From Candidatus Olsenella pullistercoris (lineage in GTDB: Bacteria; Actinomycetota; Coriobacteriia; Coriobacteriales; Atopobiaceae): 64,000 nt of DNA. The stretch covers positions 1 through 64,000 of the forward strand of contig DXBM01000031.1 of the NCBI GenBank assembly GCA_019116525.1, in the 5' to 3' direction. The notes under the pieces are model-generated. The model saw nothing but the letters and a program-made list of their open reading frames with translations. It was not told the DNA's origin and searched no databases. Positions 7,504-47,673 of this stretch are shown here, one piece after another. The translations under genes were made by a program, and so were the position numbers. Positions within the stretch are counted from its first letter, which is position 1. Every line of letters starts with the position of its first letter.

Positions 7504-7572
7504 GCCCCACTTGTACCAGGTACAAGTGGGGCGACACCGCGTTGCCCCATCTGTACCTGGTACAAGTGGGGC
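7504..7572. repeat. REPIN upstream of the RAYT gene (two inverted REPs)
   Basis: REP 1 at 7504-7532 is a palindrome with arms GCCCCACTTGTACC and GGTACAAGTGGGGC. REP 2 at 7544-7572 is the same unit in inverted orientation (centre CCTGG instead of CCAGG). They are separated by 11 bases (GACACCGCGTT). The same REP-11-REP arrangement recurs at 8450-8518 and 25696-25763. The pair should fold into a long hairpin, the usual substrate form of REP-associated transposases. Confidence 0.9.
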
Positions 7573-7696
7573 ATGCGGGGCATGCGTGCGCGCCCTGCAG
7601 CGCAGCTCCGCGTAATGTTCCGGGAAGAGACAAACCCGAGGTCAGACGTTATGCTCCAGCCACGGAGACCAGTTGGCACGAGGGCAGGGGGAGCAC

Positions 7697-8491
7697 ATGG
7701 GCAGGACGCCACGAGAGAAGTCGGAATTCGGGCTCTATCACGTTAGGCTCCGAGGAAACGACCGCCAGATTCTCTTCGACTCCGACGCCGAGCGGCTCGA
7801 TTTCCTTCGGCTGATGCGAGAGCGCCTCGTTAGCCAGGGTGTCACCGTGCTGGCCTGGTGCCTGATGAGCAACCATGTCCACATCGTCGCGCTCGACGAG
7901 GGCGACCTTCTCAGCTCCTGCTTTCACGACCTCGCGAGCATCTACGCGCGCGAGCACAACACGAGGACCGGCCATCTCGGCCACGTGTTCCAGACCCCGT
8001 TCAGGAGCTCCCCCATCAACGATGAGAGCTACCTCCTCGAGGCTGTGCGCTACGTGCACAACAACCCCGCCCACGAGGGCATCTGCACCGCAAGCGAGTG
8101 GCCCTGGAGCAGCTACCAGGAGTACGTCGGCCGCTCGGACCACGGCATAGCGAGCACTGGCCTGGTTCTCGACCTGCTCGGCGGCGTGCGGCAGTTCGAG
8201 GAGTTCACGGCTCACTTCGACGACGAGAGCCTCCTCACCAGCCCATCCACGCGCATGTCGGACGACGGGGCACTCGGGCTGGCGCGGCGCGTCCTTCCGG
8301 GGTGTGACCCGAGGGGGCTCAAGGGGAGCGACCCCAGCGAGCGAGACAGGGCCCTGCGTGCCCTGAGCGCGGCGGGGCTCAGCAACCGGCAGATCGAGAG
8401 GGTCTGCGGCATAGGGAGAAAGACGGTCGCCCGCGCCGTTCGCAACGCTGCCCCACTTGTACCAGGTACAAATGGGGCGACACGGTGTTGA
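7697..8491 (+). CDS. REP-associated tyrosine transposase (RAYT, Y1/IS200-like)
   Basis: A 264-residue HUH-type single-strand transposase of the RAYT group. The HUH motif is HVHIV (His60, His62) within WCLMSNHVHIVALDE, and the downstream helix with YLLEAVRYVHNNP carries the candidate catalytic tyrosines. The C-terminal part has a helix-turn-helix-like stretch (LSNRQIERVCGIGRKTVARAV). The ATG at 7697 follows AGGGGGAG; a TTG at 7673 is the alternative. It is bracketed by REPINs on both sides, its last codons and stop lie inside the downstream REPIN, and it runs against its neighbours. Such genes normally are single-copy and move REPs rather than themselves. Confidence 0.93.
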   Translation: MGRTPREKSEFGLYHVRLRGNDRQILFDSDAERLDFLRLMRERLVSQGVTVLAWCLMSNHVHIVALDEGDLLSSCFHDLASIYAREHNTRTGHLGHVFQTPFRSSPINDESYLLEAVRYVHNNPAHEGICTASEWPWSSYQEYVGRSDHGIASTGLVLDLLGGVRQFEEFTAHFDDESLLTSPSTRMSDDGALGLARRVLPGCDPRGLKGSDPSERDRALRALSAAGLSNRQIERVCGIGRKTVARAVRNAAPLVPGTNGATRC

Positions 8492-8518
8492 CCCACTTGA
8501 ACCTGGTACAAGTGGGGC
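8450..8518. repeat. REPIN downstream of the RAYT gene
   Basis: REP at 8450-8478 (arms GCCCCACTTGTACC and GGTACAAATGGGGC) and an inverted REP at 8490-8518 (one arm carries TTGAACC) are separated by GACACGGTGTT. The orientation matches the upstream REPIN. It provides the RAYT stop codon at 8489-8491 and lies between convergent RAYT and yqeG, so it may also terminate both transcripts. Confidence 0.9.
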
Positions 8519-8537
8519 AGGGGGCAGGTGGGGAGGT

Positions 8538-9038
8538 TTATTCGCCCTCGAAGGTGACGCCGCGCAGGGCGAGGCGCTCGAACACGCGAAAGACGTGCGT
8601 GTACCAGAGGTCGCTGCGCGACTGCGGCCGCACGAGCACGGTGCGGACGCGCGCGAGGTTGCCGGCCACAACGTCGGTGAACACCTGGTCGCCGATCATG
8701 ACGGCCTCGCCGGGCATCACGGCGTGCATCCGCATCGCGCGGCGCAGCGCGAAGGGGGCGGGCTTCATCGCGTGGTCCACGACCTCGCAGCCCATGAGGC
8801 GCGCCGTCGCGCCCACCTGCGAGGAGTGGAAGTTGTTCGAGACGAGGCAGACCGTGAGCCCTGCCGCGCGTGCGCGCGCGAGCCACGCCATGACCTCGGC
8901 GGGCGGCTCGCTCGCGTCGCGCGGGACGCAGGTGTTGTCGCGGTCAAGCAGGACGAGCCGCACACCCTCGGCCGCGAGAGCCTCGGCGTCAACGAGCGGC
9001 AGCGATGCCACGTAGCGCGTGGCGCGAAAGATCCCCAT
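8538..9038 (-). CDS. yqeG: YqeG-family HAD (IIIA) phosphatase
   Basis: A 166-residue HAD-superfamily phosphatase of the YqeG type. The nucleophile motif is LLDRDNT (Asp32, Asp34), motif II is VSNN, the lysine lies in MKPAPF and motif IV is GDQVFTDV. The physiological substrate of the family is not settled. It is 11 bases downstream of mltG and belongs to the alaS-ruvX-mltG block. The 3' end is 19 bases from the REPIN. Confidence 0.9.
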   Translation of the reverse strand: MGIFRATRYVASLPLVDAEALAAEGVRLVLLDRDNTCVPRDASEPPAEVMAWLARARAAGLTVCLVSNNFHSSQVGATARLMGCEVVDHAMKPAPFALRRAMRMHAVMPGEAVMIGDQVFTDVVAGNLARVRTVLVRPQSRSDLWYTHVFRVFERLALRGVTFEGE

Positions 9039-9049
9039 CTGCTGCGCCC

Positions 9050-10324
9050 CTACGAGTACGTCTGCTGGTGCTCGTCGTAGGTCTCGGAGAACTGCGCAGA
9101 GTCCTGCGTGATGAAGAAGTAGTAGTAGTTGGTGTTGGGCGGCTCCGCGGCAGCCTGGAGCGACGCCAGCGACGGCGAGCAGATCGGCGTGGGCGTGAGG
9201 CCGTCAATGAAGTAGGTGTTGTAGGGGTCCTCGACCGTCTGCAGCTCCTCGGCAGAGGGCGCGTGCCCGAGCGAGTAGGTCAGCGTGGCGTCGGACTGGA
9301 TGCGCATGCCCGCGCCGAGGCGGTTGTAGAAGACCGAGGCGACGTTGCCGCGCTGGTCGTCGGTCACGGCCTCGCGCTCCACGATGGAGGCCATGGTCAC
9401 GACGTCGTTGGCGTCGATCTCGTATCCAAAGCGCTCGGAGAGCGAGGCGGCCGTGGCGTCGAGGTCGATGCCGGCCGAGGAGAGCTCGAGCTCGAACTGG
9501 TCGAGCATCGCGCGGATGACGGCGTCGGCGGTCACCTCGGAGAGGCTCGAGAAGTCATAGGTCTTGGGGAAGAGGTAGCCCTCGAGCGAGTCGTTCTGGG
9601 CGGTGGCGAGGAAGGCGTAGTCGGCGGCGTAGTTGGAGGCCTTCGCCTGCGCGATGAACTCGTCGGCGGGAATGCCGAGCGACTCCTCCGCCGTGGCCGC
9701 GATCTGCTCGACGGTGTAGCCCTCGGGAATCACGAACTGCGCGTTGGTGACGTTAGGACCAGAGATGAGCTGCTCGATGATCGCCGAGGCGTCCGAGCCG
9801 GCGATGATCTGGTACGAGCCGCTCTTGATGTCCTGCTCGGCGTCGGCACGCCGGACCTGCGTGAGGAAGTCGGCAGTGTCCTCGATGAGGCCGCTGTCGT
9901 AGAGGACCTGCGCCACGGCAGCTGCCCCGGAGCCCTCGGGGATGGTGAACGAGACCTGGGTGCCGGCCTCGGCCATCTCGTGCTCGGCCTGCTGCTCGCC
10001 GGCCGGGAAGAGCATGGGGACAACAACGAACGCGAAGAGGGCGGCAAGGGCGAGCGCGCCCACAACGGCAACGATCACGAGCGGCAGGCGGCTCTTTCCG
10101 CCGCCGCCTCCCCCCTGGCGAGCGCGGGCATGCTTGGTGGCGCCGGCGCGCTGCGTCGCCGCGGCCGTTCGGCTCGAGACGCGGCCCGTCGAGAGCGCGG
10201 ACTGCGGCGCGCTCGCGCCCGAGCGCTGGGCCCTGGGCTGGCGCGGCGCGTGGGACGCCGAGGACGGGCCCGACGAGAAGTGGGATCCCCCGCGGCGAGG
10301 GGGCATGCTGCTGGAAGTGGCCAT
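9050..10324 (-). CDS. mltG: Endolytic murein transglycosylase MltG
   Basis: Membrane-anchored lytic transglycosylase that cuts nascent peptidoglycan glycan strands. The 424-residue protein has a polar, Ser/Arg/Ala-rich cytoplasmic N-terminus, one transmembrane helix at about 85-108 (LPLVIVAVVGALALAALFAF), a LysM-like region and the YceG domain with the catalytic Glu in MASIVEREA. NRLGAGMRIQSDATLTYSLG and DPYNTYFIDGLTPTPICSP are further family blocks. It lies 9 bases after ruvX. Confidence 0.93.
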   Translation of the reverse strand: MATSSSMPPRRGGSHFSSGPSSASHAPRQPRAQRSGASAPQSALSTGRVSSRTAAATQRAGATKHARARQGGGGGGKSRLPLVIVAVVGALALAALFAFVVVPMLFPAGEQQAEHEMAEAGTQVSFTIPEGSGAAAVAQVLYDSGLIEDTADFLTQVRRADAEQDIKSGSYQIIAGSDASAIIEQLISGPNVTNAQFVIPEGYTVEQIAATAEESLGIPADEFIAQAKASNYAADYAFLATAQNDSLEGYLFPKTYDFSSLSEVTADAVIRAMLDQFELELSSAGIDLDATAASLSERFGYEIDANDVVTMASIVEREAVTDDQRGNVASVFYNRLGAGMRIQSDATLTYSLGHAPSAEELQTVEDPYNTYFIDGLTPTPICSPSLASLQAAAEPPNTNYYYFFITQDSAQFSETYDEHQQTYS

Positions 10325-10333
10325 CTTGCCCTT

Positions 10334-10747
10334 TCAGGTCTGCCTGGCGTCCAGCCAGGACTGGAGGAACAGTGAGGCCGCGACCATGTCGACCTTGCCG
10401 CGCATGGCACGCTCCGAGAGGCCCTGTTCCCTCAGGATACGCCTCGCCTCTGCGGACGAGAGGCGCTCGTCGACAAATTCCAGCGGAATTCCGCAGGTGG
10501 AGGCGATTCTTTGCGCCTGCTCCCTTATACGGTCGGCCTGCGGCCCCTCCTCCCCCGCCAGCGTCCTGGGCAGGCCGCAGACGAGCAGGTCGGGCTCCCA
10601 GTCCTCGAGCACGCGCCGGAAGGTGGCGGCGTGCGCGAGCACCTCTGCCGCGGGGAGCACGCAGACGGGCGAGGCGACGCGGCCCGCCGGGTCGCTCACG
10701 GCGACGCCGACGCGCACCTCGCCTATGTCGAGCGCAAGCGCGCGCAC
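10334..10747 (-). CDS. ruvX: RuvX/YqgF RNase H-fold nuclease
   Basis: A 137-residue YqgF/RuvX protein, a family implicated in pre-16S rRNA 5' processing and sometimes described as a Holliday junction resolvase. The RNase H-fold acidic residues are visible: Asp7 in LALDIGEVRVGVAVSD, the VDERLSS block at 92-98 and Asp120 in GKVDMVAA. The gene abuts alaS with no spacing and is followed by mltG, the usual arrangement. Confidence 0.93.
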   Translation of the reverse strand: MRALALDIGEVRVGVAVSDPAGRVASPVCVLPAAEVLAHAATFRRVLEDWEPDLLVCGLPRTLAGEEGPQADRIREQAQRIASTCGIPLEFVDERLSSAEARRILREQGLSERAMRGKVDMVAASLFLQSWLDARQT

Positions 10748-13408
10748 CTAGATGCCGAGCGCCGAGCGGGCCGCGTCGAGGGCGGCGTCGATGCCGGAGG
10801 CGTCGGAGCCGCCGGCCTGCGCCATGGCGGGCTTGCCGCCGCCGCGGCCGCCCACGAGGCCCGCGATGTCCCTGATGATGGAGCCCGCCGAGAAGCCCTT
10901 GGCCACGGCGCCGTCGGTGCCGCCGGCGAGCAGCGCCACCTTTCCGTCGGGCGTGGCGGAGGCGATCACGCAGGCCACCGGCTCGCCGCCGGCCGCGTCG
11001 CGGATGCCGTCCCACGCGGAGCGCATCTCCTTGCCGGAAAGCCCGTCGAGGCGCGCGACGACCGCCTTGTAGCCGTCGAGCTGCACGGCGCCCTTGAAGG
11101 CGTCGGCGACCTTGCCGGCCCCGGCGCCGGTCGTGGCGGCCTCGAGCGCCTTGCGCGTCTCGCGCAGCTCCTGCTGGAGCGCGGCCACGCGCTCCGCGAC
11201 GTCGTCCGGGCGGCACTTGAGCTCGCGGGCCACGTCGTCGAGGGCGAGCAGGCGCTCGTCAACGTACTCGATGGCGCCCATCGAGGTCACGGCCTCGATG
11301 CGGCGGGCGTTGGAGCCAACGGAGCCCTCCGAGACGATCTTGAACAGCCCGAGGTCGGCCGTGTTCCTGGCGTGCGTGCCGCCGCAGAGCTCGCGCGAGA
11401 AGGGCTCCTCGGACTCGCCGGTGGATACCACGCGCACGACGTCGCCGTACTTCTCGCCGAAGAGCGCCACGGCGCCGGAGGCCTTGGCCTCCTCGATGCC
11501 CATGACGCGGGTGACGACGGGCTCGGCGGCAAAGATCTCGGCGTTGACCATGCCCTCGATGCGGGCGAGCTCGTCGGCGGTCACGGCCTCGAAGTGGGTG
11601 AAGTCAAAGCGCAGGCGGTCGGGCGCCACGAGCGAGCCGGCCTGGGAGACGTGCTCGCCGAGCACGCGCTTGAGCGCGGCGTCGAGCAGGTGGGTGGCGG
11701 TGTGGTTGCGACGGATGAGCTCGCGGCGGCCGGCGTCGATCGCCGCGCTCACCTCGTCGCCCACGGCGAGCGCGCCCTCCTCGACGGTGGCCACGTGCAC
11801 GTAGAGGCCGCCCTTGACCTTGGTGTCGGAGACGCGCAGGCGCGCGGCCTCGCAGGAGATGACGCCGGTGTCGCCCACCTGGCCGCCCATCTCGGCGTAG
11901 AACGGCGTGCGGTCGAGAACGACCTCTACCTCGGCGCCCGCCTCGGCACGCTCGAGCTCGGCGCCGTCAGCCACGACGGCGAGCACGGTCGCGGAGGCCT
12001 CGTCCTGGTCGTAGCCGACGAACTCCGTGGCGGGAAGGCGATCTTCCAGCTCGGTCCAGACGTCGTTGAAGGTGCCCCAGGCGTCGCGGTTCGCGGAGGC
12101 GCGGGCGCGCTCGCGCTGCTCGGTCATGCACGCGTCGAAGGCGGCCATGTCCACCGTGCGCCCGGCCGCCTCGCAGATCTCGCGGGTGAGGTCGATCGGG
12201 AAGCCGTACGTGTCGTGGAGCTTGAAGGCCACCTCGCCGGGCAGCGGGGCGCCCTCGGACAGCTGCTCGAGCTCGGCGGCGAGGCTCTGCTCGCCGGCGT
12301 CGAGCGTCGCGCCGAAGCGCTCCTCCTCAGCGGCGACGATGCCGTCGATGAGCGCGCGGCTCTCCACGATGGCCGGGTAGTTGTCGCCCATGAGGCGGCA
12401 GATCTCCTCGACGTAGGCGGTGAGGAACTCCCCCTCGACGCCGAGGAGGCGCCCGTGGTAGACCGCGCGGCGGAGCAGCCGGCGCAGCACGTAGCCGCGG
12501 CCCTCGTTGCCCGGCAGGATGCCGTCGCCGATCATGAAGGTGACGGCGCGGGCGTGGTCGGCCACGATGCGCAGGGAGCGGTCGCGCGCGGCGTCGTCGC
12601 CGTAGGACCTGCCGGAGAGGCGCTCGCCCACGCCGATCAGGCCCTGCAGGAGGTCGCCGTCATAGTTGGTGGACTTGTGCTGCATGATGGCCGCGATGCG
12701 CTCGAGGCCCATGCCGGTGTCGATGTTTCGGTGCGGCAGCTCCGGCATGGAGCCGTCCTCCTGGCGGTCGTACTGCGTGAAGACGAGGTTCCAGAACTCG
12801 AGGAAGCGGTCGCAGTCGTCACAGCCGGGGCCGCAGTGCTCGCCGCCGCAGCCGAACTCCTCGCCCTGGTCGAAGTAGATCTCGGAGCACGGGCCGCAGG
12901 GGCCGGTGGGGCCGGCGGCCCAGAAGTTGTCATCGGCGCCGAGGCGGCTGATGTGGTCGTAGGGGACGCCCTGCTCGTGCCAGAGCTCGATGGCCTCGTC
13001 GTCGTCCTCGAAGACGGTCATGTAGAGGCGCTCGGGGGGCAGGCCCAGGTGCTCGGGCGCCGAGATGAAGTCATAGGCCCAGGCGATGGCGTCGGCCTTG
13101 GAGTAGCCGCCGAAGGAGAAGTTGCCGAGCATCTCAAAGAAGGAGAGGTGCGTGGCGTCGCCGATGTTGTCGATGTCGTTGGTGCGCAGGCACTTCTGGC
13201 AGGAGCACGCGCCGATCTCGGGCATGGTGCGCTTGCCCTGGTAGTACTCCTTGAACTGGTTCATGCCCGCGTTGGTGAGCAGAAGCGAGGGATCGTCCGG
13301 GACGAGCGACGAGGACGGGTACAGCTTGCAGCCCTTGCCCTCGAAGAAGCGAAGGAAGTCCTCGCGGATCTCGGCGGTGGTCATGGTCTTGTAGTCGGCG
13401 GCGCTCAT
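10748..13408 (-). CDS. alaS: Alanyl-tRNA synthetase
   Basis: Charges tRNA-Ala. The 886-residue protein is full length with class II catalytic core (HLSFFEMLGNFSFGGY, RNIDTGMGLERIA), the editing domain zinc site (HTATHLLDAAL and CGGTHARNT) and a C-terminal C-Ala domain ending in a glycine-rich stretch (GRGGGKPAMAQAGG). An extra Cys-rich insertion (FGCGGEHCGPGCDDC) in the catalytic domain is seen in many actinobacterial enzymes. It has its own promoter and starts the alaS-ruvX-mltG-yqeG unit. Confidence 0.98.
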   Translation of the reverse strand: MSAADYKTMTTAEIREDFLRFFEGKGCKLYPSSSLVPDDPSLLLTNAGMNQFKEYYQGKRTMPEIGACSCQKCLRTNDIDNIGDATHLSFFEMLGNFSFGGYSKADAIAWAYDFISAPEHLGLPPERLYMTVFEDDDEAIELWHEQGVPYDHISRLGADDNFWAAGPTGPCGPCSEIYFDQGEEFGCGGEHCGPGCDDCDRFLEFWNLVFTQYDRQEDGSMPELPHRNIDTGMGLERIAAIMQHKSTNYDGDLLQGLIGVGERLSGRSYGDDAARDRSLRIVADHARAVTFMIGDGILPGNEGRGYVLRRLLRRAVYHGRLLGVEGEFLTAYVEEICRLMGDNYPAIVESRALIDGIVAAEEERFGATLDAGEQSLAAELEQLSEGAPLPGEVAFKLHDTYGFPIDLTREICEAAGRTVDMAAFDACMTEQRERARASANRDAWGTFNDVWTELEDRLPATEFVGYDQDEASATVLAVVADGAELERAEAGAEVEVVLDRTPFYAEMGGQVGDTGVISCEAARLRVSDTKVKGGLYVHVATVEEGALAVGDEVSAAIDAGRRELIRRNHTATHLLDAALKRVLGEHVSQAGSLVAPDRLRFDFTHFEAVTADELARIEGMVNAEIFAAEPVVTRVMGIEEAKASGAVALFGEKYGDVVRVVSTGESEEPFSRELCGGTHARNTADLGLFKIVSEGSVGSNARRIEAVTSMGAIEYVDERLLALDDVARELKCRPDDVAERVAALQQELRETRKALEAATTGAGAGKVADAFKGAVQLDGYKAVVARLDGLSGKEMRSAWDGIRDAAGGEPVACVIASATPDGKVALLAGGTDGAVAKGFSAGSIIRDIAGLVGGRGGGKPAMAQAGGSDASGIDAALDAARSALGI

Positions 13409-13449
13409 GTGTCTCCCCTGCGGTCAGGTGAAATCTCTGCAACTGTTGA

Positions 13450-13455: not shown

Positions 13456-13500
13456 GCGCGCAGAGGGCGCGAGCGCGAGCTGGGCGCGAGCCGCGCGAGG

Positions 13501-18192: not shown

Positions 18193-18348
18193 TTCCAGCC
18201 GAGAAGGACGTTTTGCTCCAAAATCTCCGCACGTCCCAGCTGAAACCTCCCCCTAGGCTGGGACATGGCGCACTTTTGGAGCGCCGGCGCGCGGGAAACT
18301 GGGACGCGCGGCGATTCGCGAGCAAGACGCTCTTCTCGGCGACTGGAA
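18193..18348. repeat. Long nested intergenic palindrome
   Basis: Nested inverted repeats: an outer pair TTCCAGCCGAGAAGGACG near 18194 with CTTCTCGGCGACTGGAA near 18332, a middle pair GCTCCAAAA with TTTTGGAGC, and an inner pair GTCCCAGC with GCTGGGAC around a 16-base loop. The right-hand part (GGGACGCGCGGCGATTCGCG, then CTTCTCG) matches the sequence beside the pepP terminator at 4530-4571. In the gap 18089-18610 it is followed by a degenerate copy of the 130-bp element. Confidence 0.75.
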
Positions 18349-18413: not shown

Positions 18414-18540
18414 CGGTGAGTGCGCGAAAGTACGGGCTAACTTTTTTGCGTTGGCGAGAAAAACCACCGCCCGGCGACAAGAACCGACCGCTCGCGGAAG
18501 AAGTCAGCATCACGAAACTCGGAATATCGCGCACTCGCGG
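18414..18540. repeat. Degenerate solo copy of the 130-bp palindromic element
   Basis: The left end GAGTGCGCGAAAGTACGGGC then TAACTTTTTT and the right end CGCGCACTCGC correspond to the terminal inverted repeats of the two well-conserved copies at 33509 and 34938. The middle is not conserved. No gene of the associated type is next to this copy. Confidence 0.7.
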
Positions 18541-25657: not shown

Positions 25658-25695
25658 GGCGCGCCTTTCGTCTGTGGTTGCTCCCCCAGATTATG

Positions 25696-25763
25696 CACCA
25701 CTTGTACCAGGTACAAATGGCTCAACACTGTGTCGCCCCATTTGTACCTGGTACAAGTGGGGA
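25696..25763. repeat. Orphan REPIN
   Basis: Two inverted REPs of the same family as those around the RAYT gene: ACTTGTACC/GGTACAAATGG at about 25696-25722 and CCCCATTTGTACC/GGTACAAGTGGGG at 25735-25763, with a linker containing AACACTGTGTC. No transposase is adjacent, so it was probably mobilised in trans by the RAYT at 7697. The outer arm of the first REP is decayed. It lies between divergently read genes. Confidence 0.88.
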
Positions 25764-27111: not shown

Positions 27112-27240
27112 CCAACCGACTTCCATCCACAAAAGGGCAGCTCCCGGACGCTCTGGCACTCCAAAACGTCCGGGAGCTATGACTTACTTTGGTAGGGGCA
27201 GGTTCCGGACGGTCTTGGGGGCCAAACTGTCATGAATCTG
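27112..27240. repeat. Cassette A repeat, left copy
   Basis: An 83-base core at 27132-27214 matches 28591-28673 in the same register. A hairpin with arms AGCTCCCGGACG and CGTCCGGGAGCT around 16 variable bases is followed by TATGACTTACTTTGG TAGGGG and a second hairpin that ends at GAATCTGCCCC. It lies just after the stop of the AbiEi-like gene and is in direct orientation to the right copy. Confidence 0.88.
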
Positions 27241-27270: not shown

Positions 27271-28332
27271 TCAGCGGAGTCCCGTGCGACGTCGCAACCT
27301 GTCCCAGTCAGGGGTCACGCACACTCCGTCAGGCAGCGCGAGGGGCGTCCCCCGCTTGGGCACCCCGTACTCGTCGAGCAGGGCCGCGAAGTCACCCGGG
27401 CGCTCCGTCACGCCAAAGCGAAACCTCACCAGCGAGACGTCATAGAGCGAGAAGCGAGAACCACGAATGTTCTCGTCCGAGATGACGTCGTCAATGTCGC
27501 GCCCGCCCATCAGCTCCTCCTCCACGTATTTCACCCGACCGTCGAGCTCCCCCAAGATCACGGCACCGTCCGTGCGAACCCAACAGTAGTCCGCCCGGTA
27601 CGGCTGCCCGCGCTCCACAACGCGCGGCACCTCCACCTGGAGCTCGGGACGGGCGTAGCCGAGAAGGAGCATCCTGCCGCGGGCGATGGACTCACCGCCG
27701 TTCTCGCTGCGAGGGTCGGCCCACGCAAGCGTTGCGAGAGCGCGGTCCACGCCGCGACGAAGCCCGCGCTGCCCCTCGATGAACTCTGCGATCCCCTCCG
27801 CACCCACGAGTCCGAGACGCAGCGCCGAGTCTATGACGCCGAGACCGTGCGCGAAGTCAGACCAGCGCAGGCAGTCAAAGACCGTCTGGTCGGGTGGAGT
27901 GACCCGCAATCCCGCGACCTGCTCGAACGCAGGATCCTCTCCGTCACTGGAAGACAAGCGGTGACGGGCCAGGCTCGGCGTCCCCGAGGCGCACCCGCGA
28001 GCCCCAACGGCAAGGTGCGTGCGACCAGTCAAGGCATCCGACACGTCAATCCCATGGGCAAGCGCCGCCGTTGGCCCGCAGAACACCCAGTCAGGGTGCA
28101 GCGCCTGGAGCCCGCGAGCAATCATGAGCGCGCGAGCGGGCGGCTTGGAGGCCAGCCAGGTGTCCGTCTCCGCGAACATGCCTCGCGCGGGCGAGACGAC
28201 GTCGCCGCGCGCGACCCTGCGCACAAGGGCGCGTCGTACGTCATCGCCCTGCCCCTCCGGAACGTAGCAGCTGCCCCGCGCCGCCGCCTCAGCCAGGCGC
28301 TCAGCAATCCCCGCGTCAACCGCCCTGCTCAT
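27271..28332 (-). CDS. AbiEi/DUF559-like protein with PD-(D/E)XK-type C-terminus (cassette A)
   Basis: A 353-residue protein. An N-terminal winged-helix of the AbiEi-antitoxin type (RRALVRRVARGDVVSPARGMF) and a middle region with VFCGPTAALAHGID and RVTPPDQTVFDCLR are followed by a Vsr/DUF559-like restriction-endonuclease fold, with candidate acidic residues in SENGGESIAR, YRADYCW and ILGELDGR. Function is not established for such proteins. It is closely similar to the protein at 46510. ATG 28332 follows GAGAGGGG; an ATG at 28371 is less likely. Both sides carry the same hairpin repeat. No partner toxin gene lies next to it. Confidence 0.8.
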   Translation of the reverse strand: MSRAVDAGIAERLAEAAARGSCYVPEGQGDDVRRALVRRVARGDVVSPARGMFAETDTWLASKPPARALMIARGLQALHPDWVFCGPTAALAHGIDVSDALTGRTHLAVGARGCASGTPSLARHRLSSSDGEDPAFEQVAGLRVTPPDQTVFDCLRWSDFAHGLGVIDSALRLGLVGAEGIAEFIEGQRGLRRGVDRALATLAWADPRSENGGESIARGRMLLLGYARPELQVEVPRVVERGQPYRADYCWVRTDGAVILGELDGRVKYVEEELMGGRDIDDVISDENIRGSRFSLYDVSLVRFRFGVTERPGDFAALLDEYGVPKRGTPLALPDGVCVTPDWDRLRRRTGLR

Positions 28333-28572
28333 AGACCCCTCTCGCCCATCCGCAACGTGTTGATGGCACATTGTTGCCCCAGGGCGATGCGCGGGCAGCC
28401 GATGATTTGGTAGGTGGTTCTACTTCCTATCTGTGATGTCGATACGACGCACATGGACAGCGAGGTCGCGCCCGTGCACGACGCGCCACGTCAAACACAG
28501 TCAGCTACGTGATAGATTCACAGACGGTCGGTTTTGTCGGCGAGTGGTCGAGCGCGCACCGCCAAGCTCGGC

Positions 28573-28700
28573 CCAACCGGTTCCATATATAAAGGGCAGC
28601 TCCCGGACGTTCTTGTCGATAAGAACGTCCGGGAGCTATGACTTACTTTGGTAGGGGAAGAATCAGGACGGTCCTGGATGAAAAACCGTCCGCGAAGTAT
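28573..28700. repeat. Cassette A repeat, right copy
   Basis: Direct repeat of the left copy, core 28591-28673, with fully paired first hairpin (ACGTTCTT with AAGAACGT extends the stem) and a second hairpin GGACGGT/ACCGTCC. It lies between argD and the AbiEi-like gene. The rest of the gap from 28333 to 28572 shows only a short fragment (TTTGGTAGG near 28411) of the same repeat. Confidence 0.88.
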
Positions 28701-33323: not shown

Positions 33324-33508
33324 CCCGCGACCTCCTTGTGCGAGCGCCCGCGCGCGGGCGCAGCCTGCGATGCGTAGACGATAGCACGCGCACACGCGCT
33401 CGCCTTGGTTCGGTCACGCGCTTGTCACACTTCTCGTCCTTCTCGCCGCCCCGACCGCAGCGCCGTCCCGACCGCGGCGCCGTCCCGACCGCGGCGCCGC
33501 CGCTCCCC

Positions 33509-33661
33509 CTGCGAGTGCGCGAAAGTTTTGGCTAACTTTTTCGTTTTTCTCGCCTTGCTCGGACGTTTCCCCAGTTGCGAACCTGAAAGAACCGTCAGAC
33601 TCGAAAAAGTTAGCCCGGACTTTCGCGCACTCGCAAAGGGGGGAGGGCGGAGCGGGGCGGG
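33509..33661. repeat. 130-bp palindromic element, copy downstream of cassette C gene
   Basis: Terminal inverted repeats TGCGAGTGCGCGAAAG then GGCTAACTTTTTCG (left) and their mirror on the right end at 33602-33635, with an inner part CTCGGACGTTTCCCCAG TTGCGAA. It is over 90 percent alike by eye to the copy at 34938 and in the same direction. The homology continues on the right into GGGAGGGCG and AGCGGGGCGGGG. The gap 33324-33508 has only short 17-bp GC-rich tandem repeats near 33452-33497. Confidence 0.9.
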
Positions 33662-33678
33662 GCGAGGCGACACGCGTC

Positions 33679-34872
33679 TCAGGACAGCAGGGCGTCCCAG
33701 CTCGTGAGGACCTCGTGCCTGAGGTGCGCGCGGGCGGCGAGAAACTCGGGCGTGCGCGCGGGCGGCTCGTGCCCGATCTTCTCAGCGACCGTCTGGGAGA
33801 GCGCGTCAAAGCGCGACACCGTGGCAAACTGCCCCCATGTGGCGAGAAGAACCTCGATGTCCATGCTCTGAAGCGCCGTCGTCCGGTCGGAGTCGGAGAG
33901 CCCCCTCTCCCCGCCAGCGTGCCACTCAAAGCTCTGGCACTCGAGGTCGAGCGCGCGCCATCCGTCACTGGCACCCCAGAAGAGGTCGCAGCGGCACGTC
34001 CTTCTCCGCGCGAGGCGCATCGCCGTTGGGCTGAGCCGCACCTCCACGTTGTGCTCGAAGCCACCGTAGCCCTCCCCTCCCAGCTCAGGCGGAAGGCCGA
34101 GGAGCATTCCCGCGCGCACCTCGAAGGGAGACGCCGCCCCCGACCGGACGAGCTCGGCAGCGCGATGGAGCTTGTCGCGGCCACGCTTGCCCTTCGCCTC
34201 GCGCGCGAGGGACGCAATGCGCCCGGGCGTCGTGAGCGGCGGTCTCGCCCACAGGTCCGTGAGCCTGCCGTTTCGGTCGAGCGAGGGGACCCACGAGCCC
34301 ATGCGCGGCAGCACGCGCTCGCGCTCCATCCGCTCGATGGCGTCACGCAGAGCTTCGGGCATGCGAAAGACCGTGAAGCTGCCGCACAGCTCGGCGGCGA
34401 CCATCACGAGGCGCTCAAGCGAGAGGCGCGGCGCGAGCGTGAGCAGCGTGAGCTCTGGCGACGCAACGAGAAGGGCCCGTGTCAGCCGCTGAGAGTGAGC
34501 GCGCGCCAGCACAGGATCCAACACGCGGGACACCAGGAGGCCTGACCTCCTTCGGTCGGCGGGTGCTGGGACGAGTACCTCGACGGGCAGCGTCACGCTC
34601 GGCGCCAGGCACACGATGGAGTCGAGCACGTCGAGGGCGCTCTCGGCGATCACCGGGCGCCCCCGTCTGCCCAGGAAGGCGTTGTTGCGCCAGACCGCGA
34701 GCTCGCGATGGGCGGCAGAGCGCACGTTGTTCAGTTCGCGACTGCTCAGGGGAAGCTCCTCATCAGCAATCGAGGGGCTGAGAAGCGCGCGCACGATCGG
34801 CGGTGTGCGCCAGACCGCGAGCGCCGATGAGCCCGATACGATCGTGCTCTTCTCGTTCTTGTCAGCCTCCAT
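33679..34872 (-). CDS. Unknown protein with Vsr/PD-(D/E)XK-like C-terminus (cassette C)
   Basis: A 397-residue protein of no family that I can name. The N-terminal part begins with SALAVWRTPPIVRALLSPSI; the C-terminal third has FEVRAGMLLGLPPELGG, then RRRTCRCDLFWG and ALDLECQSFEWH, which look like the Glu...Asp...ExQ core of a restriction-endonuclease fold. The layout resembles the AbiEi/DUF559-like proteins at 27271 and 46510, but the sequence is distinct. ATG 34872 follows AGGGGG at 6 bases; the frame stays open upstream through the repeat. It is flanked on both sides by the 130-bp element in direct orientation. Confidence 0.65.
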   Translation of the reverse strand: MEADKNEKSTIVSGSSALAVWRTPPIVRALLSPSIADEELPLSSRELNNVRSAAHRELAVWRNNAFLGRRGRPVIAESALDVLDSIVCLAPSVTLPVEVLVPAPADRRRSGLLVSRVLDPVLARAHSQRLTRALLVASPELTLLTLAPRLSLERLVMVAAELCGSFTVFRMPEALRDAIERMERERVLPRMGSWVPSLDRNGRLTDLWARPPLTTPGRIASLAREAKGKRGRDKLHRAAELVRSGAASPFEVRAGMLLGLPPELGGEGYGGFEHNVEVRLSPTAMRLARRRTCRCDLFWGASDGWRALDLECQSFEWHAGGERGLSDSDRTTALQSMDIEVLLATWGQFATVSRFDALSQTVAEKIGHEPPARTPEFLAARAHLRHEVLTSWDALLS

Positions 34873-34937
34873 GCTCGCCCCCTGACGTCCCATCGCCGCC
34901 CGCGACCGCGCCTCGTTCTCGCGTCCCCGCCCCGCCC

Positions 34938-35092
34938 CCCTTTGCGAGTGCGCGAAAGCCTTGGCTAACTCTTTCGCTTTTCTCGCCTCGCTCGGACGTT
35001 TCCCCAGTTGCGAATCTGAAAGAACCGTCAGACTCGAAAAAGTTAGCCCGGACTTTCGCGCACTCGCAAAGGGAGGGCGAAGCGGGGCGGGG
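34938..35092. repeat. 130-bp palindromic element, copy upstream of cassette C gene
   Basis: Terminal inverted repeats TTTGCGAGTGCGCGAAAG then GGCTAACTCTTTCG (left) and the mirror at 35034-35070 (right), with about four mismatches over 36 positions. MITE-like in size and symmetry, with no coding capacity. It ends about 150 bases from the DJ-1 gene stop, and no target-site duplication could be identified because both flanks are GC-rich. Nothing else was seen in 34873-35240. Confidence 0.9.
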
Positions 35093-35240
35093 CAGACGGG
35101 CGAGGCGGGGCGGAGCGGGGACGCGAGCGCATCGACACAAAACTGCCGGGGCACCCGGCGGGGCGCCCCGGCGAAGACGGTATCACGTTGTGCGCGGGGC
35201 CCTGTTGCGCAGGGGCAACGGCCTGGCACGGGAGCTCGAA

Positions 35241-41471: not shown

Positions 41472-41495
41472 TCGAGTCGCCGTTGCGTGCCGCGC

Positions 41496-41876: not shown

Positions 41877-41987
41877 GGCTGGTCCTCTCTCGGAGAGTGC
41901 GGGCGCCCTCTGCGCCCACTGCCCTTCTCATACCCGTTCCCGCGATAGCCTACGCCGAGAAAGGCGTGTCCACCACAAATCCCGACA

Positions 41988-42094
41988 AGTGCGCGCTGGA
42001 ACGAGTCGCCGGGCGCGCACTCGACGCACTTCTCGTCCAAACGGACAGAAATCCCGCCGAATGTACGCCAGCGGGCGCGCACTCGGCGGGATTC
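41988..42094. repeat. Intergenic palindromic repeat, family shared with 54609
   Basis: Two hairpins: AGTGCGCGC/GCGCGCACT (41988-41996 with 42013-42021) and AATCCCGCCGA/TCGGCGGGATT (about 42050-42060 with 42083-42093). The string GTCC-N4-GGACA then GCCGAATG and CGC is shared with 54609-54640. It fills the gap between dfx and dnaE. Confidence 0.7.
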
Positions 42095-42147
42095 TTGGCC
42101 GCGGGACCTGAGGCCGCAGCCCCGCGGCCCGCGGTCCGGATGCGCCC

Positions 42148-45100
42148 CTACGCCACGAGCACCTTGCCCTGGCGCCCCACAAGGTCGGTCATCTCGGCGA
42201 GAAGGACCATGTTGCGTGCGTCGATCCGACAGGGCAGCTCCATGCGCATGACGTCCCCGGAAGTGGCCTCCACGCGCAGCTCCACGTGATCGAGCCCGGG
42301 GTAGCGGCCAAGGATCTGCCCGAGCGTGTCCATGTAGGGAGGCGTGAGCAGGCTCGCGGGGACGTTCACCTCGAGCACCTTGGGGCGGTTGCTCCGCTCG
42401 TCGAGCACGAGCGGCTCCACCGAGAGGCAGATGATCTGGCTGCCGCGATCTGAGCGCTCGAGCTTGCCCTCCACGCGCACAAAGACGTCCCCCTGGCTCT
42501 CGCCAGTCTCGTCGACCTGCCCGGCCAGCGTTGCCGCGCACTTCTTGTAGAGCTTGGGGAAGACGACGAGCGTGACCTCGCCCTCCATGTCCTCGAGCGT
42601 GACGATGGCCATGGAGTCGCCGTTCTTGGTGGTCTTCTTCTGCACGGCCGTGACCATGCCGGCGAGGCGGATGGGCTTGCCCTCGGGCACCTTGAAGCGC
42701 TCGCGCACCGCGCCCGTGGGGTCAACGTACTCCTCGGAGACCTCGATGTCGGCAATGGTGTAGTCGCGGTTCTTGGCGAGCGCGTACTCGTAGGGGCGCA
42801 GCGGGTGGTCGGAAACGTACAGGCCAAGGACCTCGTGCTCGCGGGCGAGCTTGACCGAGCGGTCCCACTCCACGCCGTCCGGCTCGGGGACCGAGTTCTC
42901 AAAGCCCGAGCCCTCCACGTCGCCAAAAAGGTCGAACATCGAGAACTGGCCGGCGGCGCGAACCTTCTGCTGGCGCGCCGCGGCGTCGATGATGTTCTCG
43001 GGGTTGTTCTTGTCCACGAAGCGCATGAGCTGCATGCGGGTGTAGCCCGTCGAGTCAAAGGCGCCCGAGCAGATCAGTGCCTCGACCACGCGTCGGTTGG
43101 CCTGGCTCGTGTCCATGCGGTCGACGAAGTCGTGGAGGTTCTTGAAGGGGCCGTTCTTCTCGCGCTCCTCCATGATCGCCTCGCCCACGCCCTCGCCCAC
43201 GCCGCGGATGCCGGCGAAGCCGAAGCGCACGCCCTCGCTCGTGGCCGTGAAGTCACGGCCCGACTCGTTGATGTCGGGGGGCAGGATGGCCACGCCCTCG
43301 TGGCGGTAGGCCGTGACGTAGTGCACGATCTTGTCAGTCTTGCCCATGTAGGACGTGAGGACCGAGGCCATGTACTCGCGCGGGTAGTGGGCCTTCAGCC
43401 ACGCCGTCTGCATGACGAGGATGGCGTAGCCCGCCGAGTGGGACTTGTTGAAGGCGTAGGAGGCGAACTCAAGGACGTCGTCCCAGATGCGCTGGGCGAT
43501 CTCGCGCGTGTAGCCGTTGGTGACGGCGCCGTTCATCCAGTGGTCGTAGGTGGTCTCGTCCTTGCCGTCGTCCCAGTGGAAGACCGTGGACGTGAGGAGC
43601 TTGATCTTCTTCTTGGCCACGGGCTTTCTGATGCGGCTGTCCGACTCGCCGGCCGAGAAGCCCGACATCTTCATCGAGATCTTCATGACCTGCTCCTGGT
43701 AGACCATCGTTCCGTAGGTCTCACCCAGAATGTCGTCGAGGCGCGGGTCGTAGGAGACGGCCTCCTCGCGGCCGTTCATGCGGTTGATGTAGCTCGTGAC
43801 CATGCCGGCGCCCAGCGGGCCCGGTCGGTACAGGGCGATAAGGGCGACCACCTGCTTGTACTCGGTAGGTCGCATGTTCTTGATCGTGGAGGTCATGCCG
43901 GCGGACTCGATCTGGAAGACGCCCGCGGTGCGGCCCTCGCGCATGAGCTTGTAGATCTCTGGGTCGTCGAAGGGGATCTCGTCCACGTTGATGTCGATCC
44001 CGTGGTTGGCCTTGATGTTGGCGAGCGCCTTGGAGATGACCGTGAGGGTGCGAAGCCCCAGGAAGTCCATCTTGAGCAGGCCCATGTCGGCGACGGAGTG
44101 GCCCTCGTACTGGGTGATCTCGACACCGCCCTTGGTGTCGATCTTGGTGGGGACGTGGTCGTTGACCGGCGTGGGCGTGATGAGCACGGCGCAGGCATGG
44201 ACGCCCTCGCCGCGGTGCAGCCCCTCGATCGAGAGGGCCGCGTCGATGATGCGGCGGGAGTCCTCCTCGTTCTGGTAGGCGCTCTCAAAGTCGGGAGAGT
44301 ACTGGTCGGGGTGCTTCTCGCTCTTGTGCAGGGCGTTCTCAAGCGTGAGCTTGGGGTCGTTGTTGAGCATCTTCGAGAGCTTCTGCGCCTGCCAGACGGG
44401 GAAGTCGAGCACGCGCGCGGCGTCGTTGATGGCCTGCTTCGCCTTGATCGTGGAGTAGGTGATGACGTGGCAGACGCGCTCGGGGCCATAGAGCTGGCGG
44501 ACGTGCTCGACGACCTCGAGGCGCCGCTCGTCGTCGAAGTCCATGTCGATATCGGGCATCTCCGAGCGCTGCGGCGAGAGGAAGCGCTCGAACATGAGGC
44601 CGTTGTCGAGCGGGTCGAAGGTCGTGATGTCCATGGCGTAGGCCACGATGGCGCCGGCCGCGCTGCCGCGGCCCGGGCCCACGCCGATGCCGTTCCTCTT
44701 GGCCCAGCGCACGTACTCCTGGACGATCAGGAAGTAGTCCGCGAAGCCCTTCTCGCAGATGACCTTGTACTCGTACTCAAAGCGCTCTGAGACGTTCTCC
44801 CCGCCGATGGTGAGCGTGCGCCAGTCGGGCCCGTAGCGCCGCGCGAGGCCCTCCTCGCACTCCTTGCGGAAGCGCTCCTCGGAGGTCTCCCCCTCGTCGA
44901 GGTCGGGGAACTTGGGCAGGTACATGTGCGTCCAGTCGAGCTCGTAGGAGCACTTCTCGGCCACCTCGAGCGTGTTGTCGATGACCTCGGGCGCCCAGGA
45001 GAACAGCTCGCGCATCTCCTCCTCGCTCTTGATGTAGAACTCGGAGCCCGTCATGCGCTTGCGGTTGACGTCGTCGAGCTTGGAGGCAGTGCCGATGCAG

Positions 45101-45975
45101 GAGAGGACGTCCTGGGTGGGCGCGTCCTCACGCGTGAGATAGTGGTTGTCGTTGGTGGCGACGACCTTGATGCCGAGCTCGGCGCCCATGCGCACGATCT
45201 GCTCGGAGAGGGTGCGGTCGGTGAAGCCTCCCCAGTTGGGGTCGGAGAGGCCGTGGTCCTGCACCTCGAGGTAGAAGTCGTCGCCAAAGATCTCCTTGAA
45301 GGTGAGCGCCCAGCGGCGCGCCTCCTCGGGTCGCCCGTCGAAGAACATGCGCGGGATGATGCCCGAGACGCACGCGGAGGTGCAGATGATGCCCTCGTGA
45401 TAGCGGCGCAGCATGTCAAGGGTGGTGCGCGGGTAGTAGTAGAACATCTCGCCCGAGGCGGCCTCGCTCATCATCTTCATGAGGTTCTCGTAGCCGCGCT
45501 CGTCCTTGGCGAGCAGGATCAGGTGGTAGCGGTGCTGGCGGGTGCCCTTCTCGATGCAGTCGTCCGTGATGAAGTAGGCCTCGCAGCCAAAGATCGGCTT
45601 GATGAGCAGGCTCGGGCGGTTGGCGCGCACGGCCTCGAGGTCGTGTGTCTCGTTCCAGACGCGCACGTCGGAGGCCCACTGGGCGTGGACGCGGTCGTGG
45701 GGGGCGGCGTCCGGGGCGTCCGGCTCGGGCTCCTCGAGCTCCCAGCCCTTCTGGAAGCACTCGATGTCGTGGCGCCACTGCCCCATGTCCTTCTGGGCGT
45801 CGTTGTACTTGCGGCACTCAAGGTCGAAGTCAGGGATGCCGAACATGTAGCCGTGGTCGGTGAGGGCAAGCGCCGGCATCCCGAGGTCGACGGCGCGCTT
45901 GACCATGTCCGAGACGCGCGTGGCGGCGTCGAGGATCGAGAAGTCCGAGTGGTTGTGCAGGTGTACGAAGGCCAT
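42148..45975 (-). CDS. dnaE: DNA polymerase III alpha subunit
   Basis: Replicative polymerase of the DnaE1 type. The 1275-residue chain starts with a PHP domain (VHLHNHSDFSILD), contains the polymerase catalytic acids in PDIDMDFDDERR and the palm region with GPGRGSAAGAIVAYAM, then HhH, OB-fold (ITLVVFPKLYKK region) and a short C-terminal domain. It is about 100 residues longer than the E. coli protein, mainly because of an Asp/Glu/Pro-rich PHP insert (LEEPEPDAPDAA). It is transcribed alone. Confidence 0.97.
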   Translation of the reverse strand: MAFVHLHNHSDFSILDAATRVSDMVKRAVDLGMPALALTDHGYMFGIPDFDLECRKYNDAQKDMGQWRHDIECFQKGWELEEPEPDAPDAAPHDRVHAQWASDVRVWNETHDLEAVRANRPSLLIKPIFGCEAYFITDDCIEKGTRQHRYHLILLAKDERGYENLMKMMSEAASGEMFYYYPRTTLDMLRRYHEGIICTSACVSGIIPRMFFDGRPEEARRWALTFKEIFGDDFYLEVQDHGLSDPNWGGFTDRTLSEQIVRMGAELGIKVVATNDNHYLTREDAPTQDVLSCIGTASKLDDVNRKRMTGSEFYIKSEEEMRELFSWAPEVIDNTLEVAEKCSYELDWTHMYLPKFPDLDEGETSEERFRKECEEGLARRYGPDWRTLTIGGENVSERFEYEYKVICEKGFADYFLIVQEYVRWAKRNGIGVGPGRGSAAGAIVAYAMDITTFDPLDNGLMFERFLSPQRSEMPDIDMDFDDERRLEVVEHVRQLYGPERVCHVITYSTIKAKQAINDAARVLDFPVWQAQKLSKMLNNDPKLTLENALHKSEKHPDQYSPDFESAYQNEEDSRRIIDAALSIEGLHRGEGVHACAVLITPTPVNDHVPTKIDTKGGVEITQYEGHSVADMGLLKMDFLGLRTLTVISKALANIKANHGIDINVDEIPFDDPEIYKLMREGRTAGVFQIESAGMTSTIKNMRPTEYKQVVALIALYRPGPLGAGMVTSYINRMNGREEAVSYDPRLDDILGETYGTMVYQEQVMKISMKMSGFSAGESDSRIRKPVAKKKIKLLTSTVFHWDDGKDETTYDHWMNGAVTNGYTREIAQRIWDDVLEFASYAFNKSHSAGYAILVMQTAWLKAHYPREYMASVLTSYMGKTDKIVHYVTAYRHEGVAILPPDINESGRDFTATSEGVRFGFAGIRGVGEGVGEAIMEEREKNGPFKNLHDFVDRMDTSQANRRVVEALICSGAFDSTGYTRMQLMRFVDKNNPENIIDAAARQQKVRAAGQFSMFDLFGDVEGSGFENSVPEPDGVEWDRSVKLAREHEVLGLYVSDHPLRPYEYALAKNRDYTIADIEVSEEYVDPTGAVRERFKVPEGKPIRLAGMVTAVQKKTTKNGDSMAIVTLEDMEGEVTLVVFPKLYKKCAATLAGQVDETGESQGDVFVRVEGKLERSDRGSQIICLSVEPLVLDERSNRPKVLEVNVPASLLTPPYMDTLGQILGRYPGLDHVELRVEATSGDVMRMELPCRIDARNMVLLAEMTDLVGRQGKVLVA

Positions 45976-46025
45976 GGGGCTCCCTGTCAGCGTGGTGAGA
46001 GGTCCGCGTCATTTCGCTGCAACCT

Positions 46026-46031
46026 AGAATA
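46026..46031 (-). promoter_or_regulatory. -10 box of dnaE
   Basis: TATTCT on the minus strand about 50 bases upstream of the ATG. No -35 match. The remainder of 45976-46509 holds the left half of the cassette B repeats. Confidence 0.4.
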
Positions 46032-46175
46032 GCCGATGGGGCGGACGAATTTGTGGGGCGAAACATGGGCCCGAGCAGGGCTTTCACGCGGACGCGCAGC
46101 TCAGGAGGGCGAGAAAATCCACGGCATGCGCGCGAGCGGCGAGGCGCCGGCCCTTGTCGGCCCTCCCACCCTGAG

Positions 46176-46280
46176 CGTAGGCAGCAAACGACAGAATCTT
46201 CCTCCAGAGTGTCGGCAGCTGCCCACGGGAGGAGCATGTGGGAATCAGCCGTCACTTTCGGCCGAAAAAGTGTCGGCAGC
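46176..46280. repeat. Cassette B repeats, left pair
   Basis: Two units of about 50 bp, 61 bp apart. Unit a (46176-46227) starts CGTAGGCAGCAAACGACA and contains TGTCGG. Unit b (46237-46280) is a hairpin with arms around 46248-46260 and 46263-46277 (CACTTTCGG with CCGAAAAAGTG). They correspond to units d and c on the other side of the gene, so the pairs are mirror-ordered. Confidence 0.8.
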
Positions 46281-46509
46281 CTCCTGCGCTCCCCTGTTGG
46301 CCTCGGGTGCCGCTCACCGAGAAAAACCTGCCGCAGGTGAATCTTCCACGAGTCTTTCGTGCCAGGTTCGCGCATGACTGCGCGCCCAGTACCAGCAACA
46401 ATCCCCCTCCCGCTTTCATTTTCGCATCAATAGTCTACGTGCACGGGTTTTCGCGGGCGGAGCTTTGCCCGATTTGGGGGAACAATCTGCGTCCAGCGAA
46501 GGGAGGCAC

Positions 46510-47565
46510 ATGAGCCGGAGCGTGGACCATGAGATCGCCGGGCTGCTCGATGCGGCAGAGGACAGGGGGAGCTGCCTCGCCGTCTCGGAAGAGATCCCAG
46601 GAAGGCTGTGCCGGGCGCTGGAGCGGCGCGCCAAGTCAGGGGAGGTGACCTCGCCGGCGCGCGGCCTCTTTGTGCGGACCGACCTGTGGCGCGACCTCGG
46701 GCGTGACCAGCGGACGCTCTTCACCGCGCGCGGGCTGCAGGCGCTCCACCCCGGCTGGGTCTTCTGCGGGCCCACGGCAGCCGTTGCCTACGGGATCGAC
46801 GTCTCGTGGTCGCTGCAGTCATCGATACACGTTGCCACCACGCGCTCGGGGTTTCGTGGCGGGGCGGGCATCGTGAGGCGCCACGCGATCCTGCCCGAGG
46901 GCGGAGGCCTCGCGGACGTCAGATTGGAGGGCGGCCTGCGCGTGACGCCCCCGGAGCGCACAGTCTACGACTGCCTGCGCCGCACGGACTTCCCGCTGGG
47001 GCTCGGCGTCGCGGACTCCGCGCTCAGGCAGGGCGTGGTGACGGAAGAGGGACTCAGCGCCTTCGTCGAGTCCGTGCCCCGTGACCCGCGCGGCAGGGAG
47101 CAGGCGCTCGGAACCCTCGCGTGGGCGGACCCTCGCAGCGAGAACGGCGGCGAGTCGATCGCGCGGGGGCGGATGCTGGCGCTCGGCTATGCCCGCCCCG
47201 AGCTGCAGGTCGAGGTTCCACGCCCAGCAGACGGGGGCACGCCGTACCGGGCTGACTTTGCCTGGGTGCGCACCGACGGCCTCGTGATCCTGGGCGAGCT
47301 CGACGGCACGGACAAGTACCTGCGCACGGAGATGACGCACGGGCGCACGATCGAGGAGGTGCTCTCCGACGAGCGCGAACGGGGTTCTCGCATCACGCTC
47401 TACGATGTGTCCATCCTGCGGTTTCGCTTTGAGCTCACGGACGACCCCGCACGCTTCTCGGCCCTGCTGAGCGAGTACGGGGTGCCGAGGCGCGGCTCGG
47501 CACTGGCACAGCCGGACGGGGTTCGCGCACTGCCGGACTGGGATGCCCTGCGCCGCAGCACGTAG
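46510..47565 (+). CDS. AbiEi/DUF559-like protein with PD-(D/E)XK-type C-terminus (cassette B)
   Basis: A 351-residue paralogue of the protein at 27271, alike over its whole length and nearly identical around LAWADPRSENGGESIARGRM and LGYARPELQVEVPR. The same N-terminal winged helix (CRALERRAKSGEVTSPARGLF), VFCGPTAAVAYGID and candidate nuclease residues (GESIAR, YRADFAW, ILGELDG) are visible. ATG 46510 follows AAGGGAGG. The TAG stop is inside the first downstream repeat. The repeats around it are a different family from those around its paralogue. No toxin partner adjacent. Confidence 0.82.
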   Translation: MSRSVDHEIAGLLDAAEDRGSCLAVSEEIPGRLCRALERRAKSGEVTSPARGLFVRTDLWRDLGRDQRTLFTARGLQALHPGWVFCGPTAAVAYGIDVSWSLQSSIHVATTRSGFRGGAGIVRRHAILPEGGGLADVRLEGGLRVTPPERTVYDCLRRTDFPLGLGVADSALRQGVVTEEGLSAFVESVPRDPRGREQALGTLAWADPRSENGGESIARGRMLALGYARPELQVEVPRPADGGTPYRADFAWVRTDGLVILGELDGTDKYLRTEMTHGRTIEEVLSDERERGSRITLYDVSILRFRFELTDDPARFSALLSEYGVPRRGSALAQPDGVRALPDWDALRRST

Positions 47566-47673
47566 GCGCGATACGACGCTTTTGTCGGCAAAAGTGTCGG
47601 TTGACGCCTACAGCTTGGGGAACGTAGGCAGAAAACGACACTTCGAGGGTCCAAACTGTCGGTTCGCGCCCAT
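47561..47673. repeat. Cassette B repeats, right pair
   Basis: Unit c (47561-47611) is a near-perfect palindrome: CGTAGGCG with CGCCTAC outside, CGAC and CTTTTG with CAAAAG and GTCG inside, loop TCGG. Unit d (47623-47673) starts CGTAGGCAGAAAACGACA and contains TGTCGG. The starts are 62 bp apart. Unit c supplies the stop codon of the gene. Confidence 0.85.

Follow-up and report, generated by a model that had tools for sequence, protein, structure and literature searches.

The stretch analysed here, hereafter the window, comprises the first 64,000 nucleotides of contig DXBM01000031.1 of Candidatus Olsenella pullistercoris (C12:1-64000; C-numbers denote contigs of this genome, and G-numbers other genomes of the genus), whose assembly GCA_019116525.1 spans 1.88 Mb at 81.5% completeness. 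It carries one RAYT gene, encoding an HUH tyrosine transposase of the kind associated with repetitive extragenic palindromes (REPs), together with three genes, g1, g4 and g2, which are members of one protein family with a predicted AbiEi-like part and a nuclease part resembling Vsr and I-Bth0305I. A first-pass annotation of the window had described all four genes as single genes between matching palindromes. This layout was indeed seen at the RAYT, at g1 (flanks forming a direct repeat, 81% over 100 nt) and at g4 (direct repeat, 91% over 149 nt); at g2, the upstream match reaches 28 bits and is under our threshold of 40 bits. The genes g4 and g1 are strong cases and g2 is a weak one (Table 1). 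The RAYT scores 56.9 bits against NCBIfam REP_Tyr_transpos, under the cut-off of 80. A second RAYT with a flanking repeat pair was identified from its translation elsewhere in the host genome (C18:1327-2037, L021).

Table 1. Genes, elements and other features of the window
Feature	Position	Strand	Remarks
Shorter g13-like solo	4485..4552		assigned by eye
RAYT-cognate double palindrome, upstream	7478..7598		
RAYT gene (HUH, Y1_Tnp), known type for comparison	7697..8491	+	Pfam Y1_Tnp E=7e-7
RAYT-cognate double palindrome	8448..8520		RAYT stop codon falls within it
Solo resembling g13 element	18198..18340		g13 at C40:9560-10669; assigned by eye
Short solo match to g4 element	18418..18446		
Solo copy of RAYT-cognate palindrome	25694..25762		
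g1 element, downstream copy	27132..27231		
Family gene g1, AbiEi-like + Vsr-like nuclease	27271..28371	-	subfamily 1
g1 element, upstream copy	28591..28690		
g4 element, downstream copy	33495..33643		
Family gene g4, AbiEi-like + EDxHD/Vsr-like nuclease	33679..34872	-	subfamily 2
g4 element, upstream copy	34928..35076		
g2-type units, upstream	46173..46285		weak match, 28 bits; units 46173-46193, 46233-46285
Family gene g2	46510..47565	+	subfamily 1, 59% identical to g1
g2 element, downstream	47560..47675		g2 stop codon at element edge
Solo element of g9	57224..57356		g9 at C18:46118-47185; three 23-bp units
Lysine riboswitch	62613..62784	-	Rfam, 57.5 bits
Solo g9 element	62940..63083		three 23-bp units, spacing 83 and 38 nt

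As for the proteins, the identity given to them at first pass (AbiEi/Vsr-like) is upheld by predicted structures, and the DUF559/AbiEi name is a weak match by sequence. None of the three window genes matches a Pfam family at E <= 0.01 (Y1_Tnp was found at the RAYT only), and PADLOC AbiEi profiles match at E 2e-6 and 6e-7. The predicted structures have an AbiEi-like two-domain fold in the N-terminal part and a Vsr-like fold in the nuclease part, which in g4 resembles the EDxHD homing endonuclease I-Bth0305I, and the E-D-x-H-D active-site residues are conserved. Codon usage of the family genes is atypical (0.17 vs 0.40 +/- 0.10 per codon). In the genus set of 31 genomes (the host and 30 others, many of them drafts), a subfamily-2 profile gave 6-18 matches in every genome. 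At least one match was present in 193 of 296 Coriobacteriia genomes, 187 of the 193 belonging to the same order; because at most seven candidates per genome were scored in this class survey, its copy counts are lower bounds. Homologs come mostly from Olsenella (a genus of Atopobiaceae, Coriobacteriales), Thermophilibacter, Paratractidigestivibacter or Coriobacteriia without a genus name, and a relative of the g4 protein (43%) is encoded on a contig of Olsenella sp. An270.

Next, the 700 nt before and the 700 nt after each called gene were compared in the nine host contigs that hold family genes (344 kb, hereafter the sample). At 40 bits, a threshold that misses worn pairs, matching flanks were present at 6 of 12 family genes and at 8 of 240 other genes (Fisher p = 7e-6); when the comparison was restricted to the 58 other genes with at least 100 bp of intergenic DNA on both sides, five had a pair (p = 0.002). 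One of the eight control genes is the second RAYT, and two lie between copies of the TGACAGAGGGGACGG palindrome family described below. At three of the 12 family genes nothing was found, and three more had only sub-threshold matches. Two members outside this first test, on C5 and C41, are likewise paired, at 118 and 60 bits, bringing the total to 8 of 14. As a family pattern, the layout holds for these eight genes and is not universal, with six of the 12 genes tested first being below the threshold. In the genus-wide survey, 46 of the 68 loci were self-paired (12 host genes included; L030, L083, L085 and L101 excluded as duplicates of included loci), compared with 48 of 4556 mismatched flank pairs, many of which match between close family members or in apparently shared neighbouring DNA. 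In other genera, the corresponding counts were 11 of 28 and 1 of 756. The loci were the best-scoring ones (one per genome in the other genera), picked before their flanks were seen and not at random, and the counts are not independent since orthologs and genomes are related.

It might be supposed that intergenic palindromes are simply everywhere in this genome and that the pairs arose by chance. Palindromes are common there (248 hairpin segments in the sample at a loose threshold, coding regions included), and the five paired wide-gap genes point the same way; what is rare is the gene-specific pair. The first-pass annotation had called for a scan of control genes, and an equal frequency of pairs at such genes was not seen. 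Chance might account for an isolated weak pair like that of g2, but for the family at large the gene, genus and other-genera controls refute it, and we assign it hardly any probability.

The 57 paired loci among the 96 surveyed in the genus and in other genera were taken as the element set. Their flanking match has a median length of 122 nt (range 28-353), and the downstream copy begins a median of 31 nt past the stop codon. The upstream copy is self-complementary (28 bits) in 38 of the 57 loci and in 0 of 57 after simple shuffling. The repeats are specific to their proteins: elements of different loci matched at 40 bits in 14 of 63 pairs with at least 55% protein identity, and in 0 of 1533 pairs below it. 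As judged by eye, g4-type elements from different species have a conserved core near CGTTTYCCCAGTTGGC in mid-element and differ at their ends. This core is possibly a candidate for the processed site.

This specificity bears on another explanation, namely that the palindromes are moved by a RAYT or another transposase and the genes merely lie between copies. Two RAYTs are present in the host genome, as is the large TGACAGAGGGGACGG palindrome family, for which no owner gene was found. However, the element follows the protein clade, the unit of g9 (see below) follows its ortholog, and the RAYT's own repeat differs in sequence from the elements of the family genes. We consider such passengers a decidedly improbable explanation. 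The TGACAGAGGGGACGG family itself was observed at window positions 58819-58923 and at C12:66477 and 68499, C16:2307 and 3614, C30:8406, 10628 and 13378, C70:42040, and C8:1582 and 15069; all 19 exact motif sites in the sample are intergenic.

We then examined if element abundance followed gene presence. Solo copies, which had been noted at first pass for two families, do exist, and they belong to at least four element families of the host genome rather than two. Besides the two copies of the g4 element beside its gene, the host has four more of almost full length (136-145 of 149 nt, 80-84%). Among the 30 other genomes the g4 element has matches, partly short, in two, both of which carry a 57-58% ortholog. 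The element of g9 is built from 23-bp units GGTTGTGnGCAAnAnnTTTGATG; in the three-unit elements of the sample, two units are oriented towards each other at a distance of 28 or 38 nt, with the third 82-83 nt off. Units were counted 45 times in the host genome, 65 in G009, 50 in G010, 42 in G017, 34 in G016, 22 in G024, 17 in G003, 7 in G021, 5 in G013, 4 in G002, 2 in G029, and once each in G006 and G027, and not at all in the 18 others; none of the 31 genomes contained the reversed pattern. Orthologs of g9 (at least 53% identity, partial ones included; next best match 38%) were detected in 14 of the 30 other genomes. Units were present in 11 of these 14 and in 1 of the 16 genomes without an ortholog (p = 9e-5), and with the host g9 element as DNA query, matches were obtained in 7 of 14 and 1 of 16, respectively (p = 0.012). 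The units also vary between genomes: by eye, base 5 is T in 61 of 65 units of G009, 41 of 50 of G010 and 14 of 17 of G003, and in 0 of 13 listed among the 45 of the host. Units adjacent to the gene match the preference of their genome in G009, G010 and the host and are mixed in G003. In the 12 genomes with a common site, g9 is 53-63% identical and its two neighbours are 77-95% identical, indicating that the gene evolves faster than its surroundings.

The scattered units might alternatively be operators of an AbiEi-like autorepressor, the solos being its regulon and the nuclease part serving defence. According to PMC7319586, AbiEi of Streptococcus agalactiae binds its own promoter at two inverted repeats of 23 bp; the equality of this length with that of the g9 unit is suggestive only. 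All 17 g9 units in the sample are intergenic, and one solo occupies equivalent positions in G009 and its sister genome G010. On the other hand, the copy past the stop codon is in many loci as elaborate as that before the start codon, and the sisters G017 and G021 differ both in units (42 vs 7) and in the elements they carry upstream of argC. Moreover, Pfam gave no indication of an AbiEii toxin in the genes directly adjoining the three window genes on either side, identifying these neighbours as MFS, aminotransferase, ArgC, DJ-1, DNA polymerase III alpha and UvrD. Because close relatives differ in their solos and the post-stop element is often as complete as the other, a regulator with dispersed target genes is the poorer fit, and we regard it as improbable.

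Some sites occur both with and without the gene. Upstream of argC, a g4-type gene is present in 8 of 30 genomes, DJ-1 adjoins argC without the gene in 11, and 11 are not scorable. Among the gene-less sites, i) those of G004 and G009 contain a single element matching that of their occupied sisters G015 and G010, ii) those of G002 and G005 contain a palindrome with a similar core, and those of G023 and G026 a worn one (by eye), and iii) those of G003 and G012 are short gaps with no palindrome; G007, G020 and G030 were left out of this assignment. The occupied site of G015 differs from the gene-less site of its sister G004 by 1211 bp plus a further copy of the 149-bp element. At the g1 site, 1300 bp plus one extra 132-bp copy separate G016 (gene) from its close relative G021 (none). 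By eye, the left part of the single G021 element is like one flank and its right part like the other, as recombination between the flanks would likely leave it. In total, eight genomes have the gene at the g1 site, in eight the neighbours are adjacent without it, and 13 are not scorable. By parsimony, six changes occurred at the argC site (19 scorable genomes) and two at the g1 site, where a loss in the G017/G021 clade appears to be the simplest account. Turnover of the elements is fast: in G017 and G021, several intergenic gaps contain different palindromic elements, with most aligned blocks being 95-99% identical. The region upstream of argC (window 33324-35240; L256, L257, L260, L263) is a hot spot, holding elements of at least three families in different species.

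These polymorphisms bring up the nearest rival explanation, in which gene and element move as a homing cassette into vacant copies of that element once these have been cut by the encoded nuclease. Solos would then be vacant or vacated docking sites, not spread copies. The likeness of the g4 nuclease part to I-Bth0305I agrees with this, as do the element-alone and element-gene-element states at two sites and the six changes of occupancy on the tree. So does the position of g9 orthologs in G016 (C3:6835-7482, L167; matched only in part, residues 140-355) and G017 (C5:74075-75133, L155), which share a site with flanks 93-95% alike, other than that of the 12 remaining orthologs. These two are the unit-rich members (34 and 42 units) of a tight clade; their close relatives G011 and G021, lacking the ortholog, have 0 and 7 units. 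However, the host site is kept by 12 of 14 g9 orthologs and by 7 of the 12 relatives of g4 examined, the tree at the g1 site favours loss, and in no genome examined was the same gene seen in several solo elements. We consider the homing cassette rather unlikely as an explanation.

More than half of the tested genes lie between their own repeats, which for the best-studied members are scattered genome-wide; from this, it can be inferred that the proteins likely spread the repeats. The reading we prefer, and hold to be probable though by no means assured, is that of a widespread family combining an AbiEi-like part with a Vsr/homing-type nuclease, many of whose genes lie between gene-specific elements, the protein recognizing and cutting, and so spreading, its element. 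The proteins would bind, cut and copy the elements. According to the proposed mechanism, binding of the inverted units (23 bp in g9) would fall to the AbiEi-like part, and the EDxHD nuclease would introduce a nick or cut inside the element, whereupon repair or replication from another copy could put the element into other intergenic gaps. Recombination between the two flanking copies would probably delete the gene and leave one element.

Several observations weigh against the spreading of elements by these proteins. No pair at threshold was found at 22 of 68 loci in the genus and 17 of 28 in other genera (39 of 96 overall). The g9 pattern was built from host and ortholog flanks, which favours those genomes, and its counts include gene-adjacent units. 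Orthologs occur with no unit in G001, G012 and G018 and with only one or two in G006, G027 and G029, and the seven units of G021 occur with no ortholog. G025, with a 58% ortholog of g4, lacks any match to the g4 element. Nowhere was an element found to have entered a clean empty site; between relatives, one element has mostly been exchanged for a different one. The mentioned lack of genes residing in several of their own solos counts here as well. Finally, a Foldseek search by itself returned no hit at E <= 0.001 with either model.

That a RAYT and non-HUH genes share one layout, as had been proposed for the window, is borne out by the gene controls, by the surveys of the genus and other genera, and by protein-specific repeats, copy number that follows the gene, and site polymorphism. 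A bolder version, which we put forward tentatively as somewhat short of an even chance, would see the AbiEi-EDxHD nucleases, about a dozen per genome, as non-HUH makers of REPs: each private palindrome would be written, trimmed and rewritten between genes, protein and repeat would co-evolve as lock and key, and the gene would dock in its own element and pop out of it again.

RAYTs are thought to spread REPs. As described in PMC2817692, a RAYT gene lies between two palindromes of its own, with intergenic solos, evolves faster than its neighbours and is followed by repeat abundance. The present family shares with RAYT/REP systems (REPINs) the single gene between own palindromes, the dispersed solos, the fast evolution and the abundance that goes with the gene. 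It differs in its protein, which does not belong to the HUH tyrosine transposases, in its flanking match, which is longer and varies between members, and in the multiple family matches per genome of the genus. Judged by sequence tests, the family seems to work like RAYT/REP, yet by its protein it is not a RAYT. With EDxHD homing endonucleases (I-Bth0305I) and Vsr, it has in common the predicted fold and the catalytic residues of the nuclease part, but here the nuclease is fused to an AbiEi-like part, and no intron or intein was seen around the gene. AbiEi, a type IV antitoxin, is similar in its predicted N-terminal fold, in PADLOC profile matches and in inverted sites of 23 bp; in contrast, the family protein includes a nuclease part, its sites flank the gene on either side and recur elsewhere, and no AbiEii was found among the immediate neighbours. 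Miniature inverted-repeat transposable elements (MITEs) are short gene-less elements with inverted ends, related to a gene-bearing unit. The solos of the family fit this description, but no transposase family is known for them.

To our knowledge, REP-type palindromes have so far been tied to one enzyme class. Among the matches listed from the open-access literature (title and start of abstract; subscription papers and preprints are mostly outside it), no such system of a nuclease with a private repeat was found. If our preferred reading is true, a second, unrelated nuclease class would have the RAYT lifestyle, and the combination of a gene, a private palindrome and many solos would have evolved more than once. 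A new system would then be at hand for testing how REPs spread, and the large number of natural protein/DNA-site pairs would serve studies on the evolution of DNA recognition. The family could also account for part of the fast-changing intergenic DNA in these bacteria.

Other candidates were considered and rejected. The Rfam scan returned the lysine riboswitch only, and a reading of the elements as RNA was not retained. As for a phage or plasmid origin, g4 has no match in phages, and g1 has one weak match, to a Collinsella record in a plasmid collection. The sequences GTTCTTCTCG and GTCCTTCTCG are each about ten times more frequent than expected from a third-order model (52 vs 5.3 and 65 vs 5.9 in the sample) and occur in both genic and intergenic DNA. 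In spite of this 10-fold over-representation, GTTCTTCTCG was dropped as a shared element core because the motif is not peculiar to the elements: of 117 GTYCTTCTCG sites, 55 are in intergenic DNA, which makes up 16% of the sample, and 62 are genic. Lastly, window positions 461-743 contain five tandem unit copies, 62-63 nt apart, which by eye resemble the element of g6 (C70:34092-35117).

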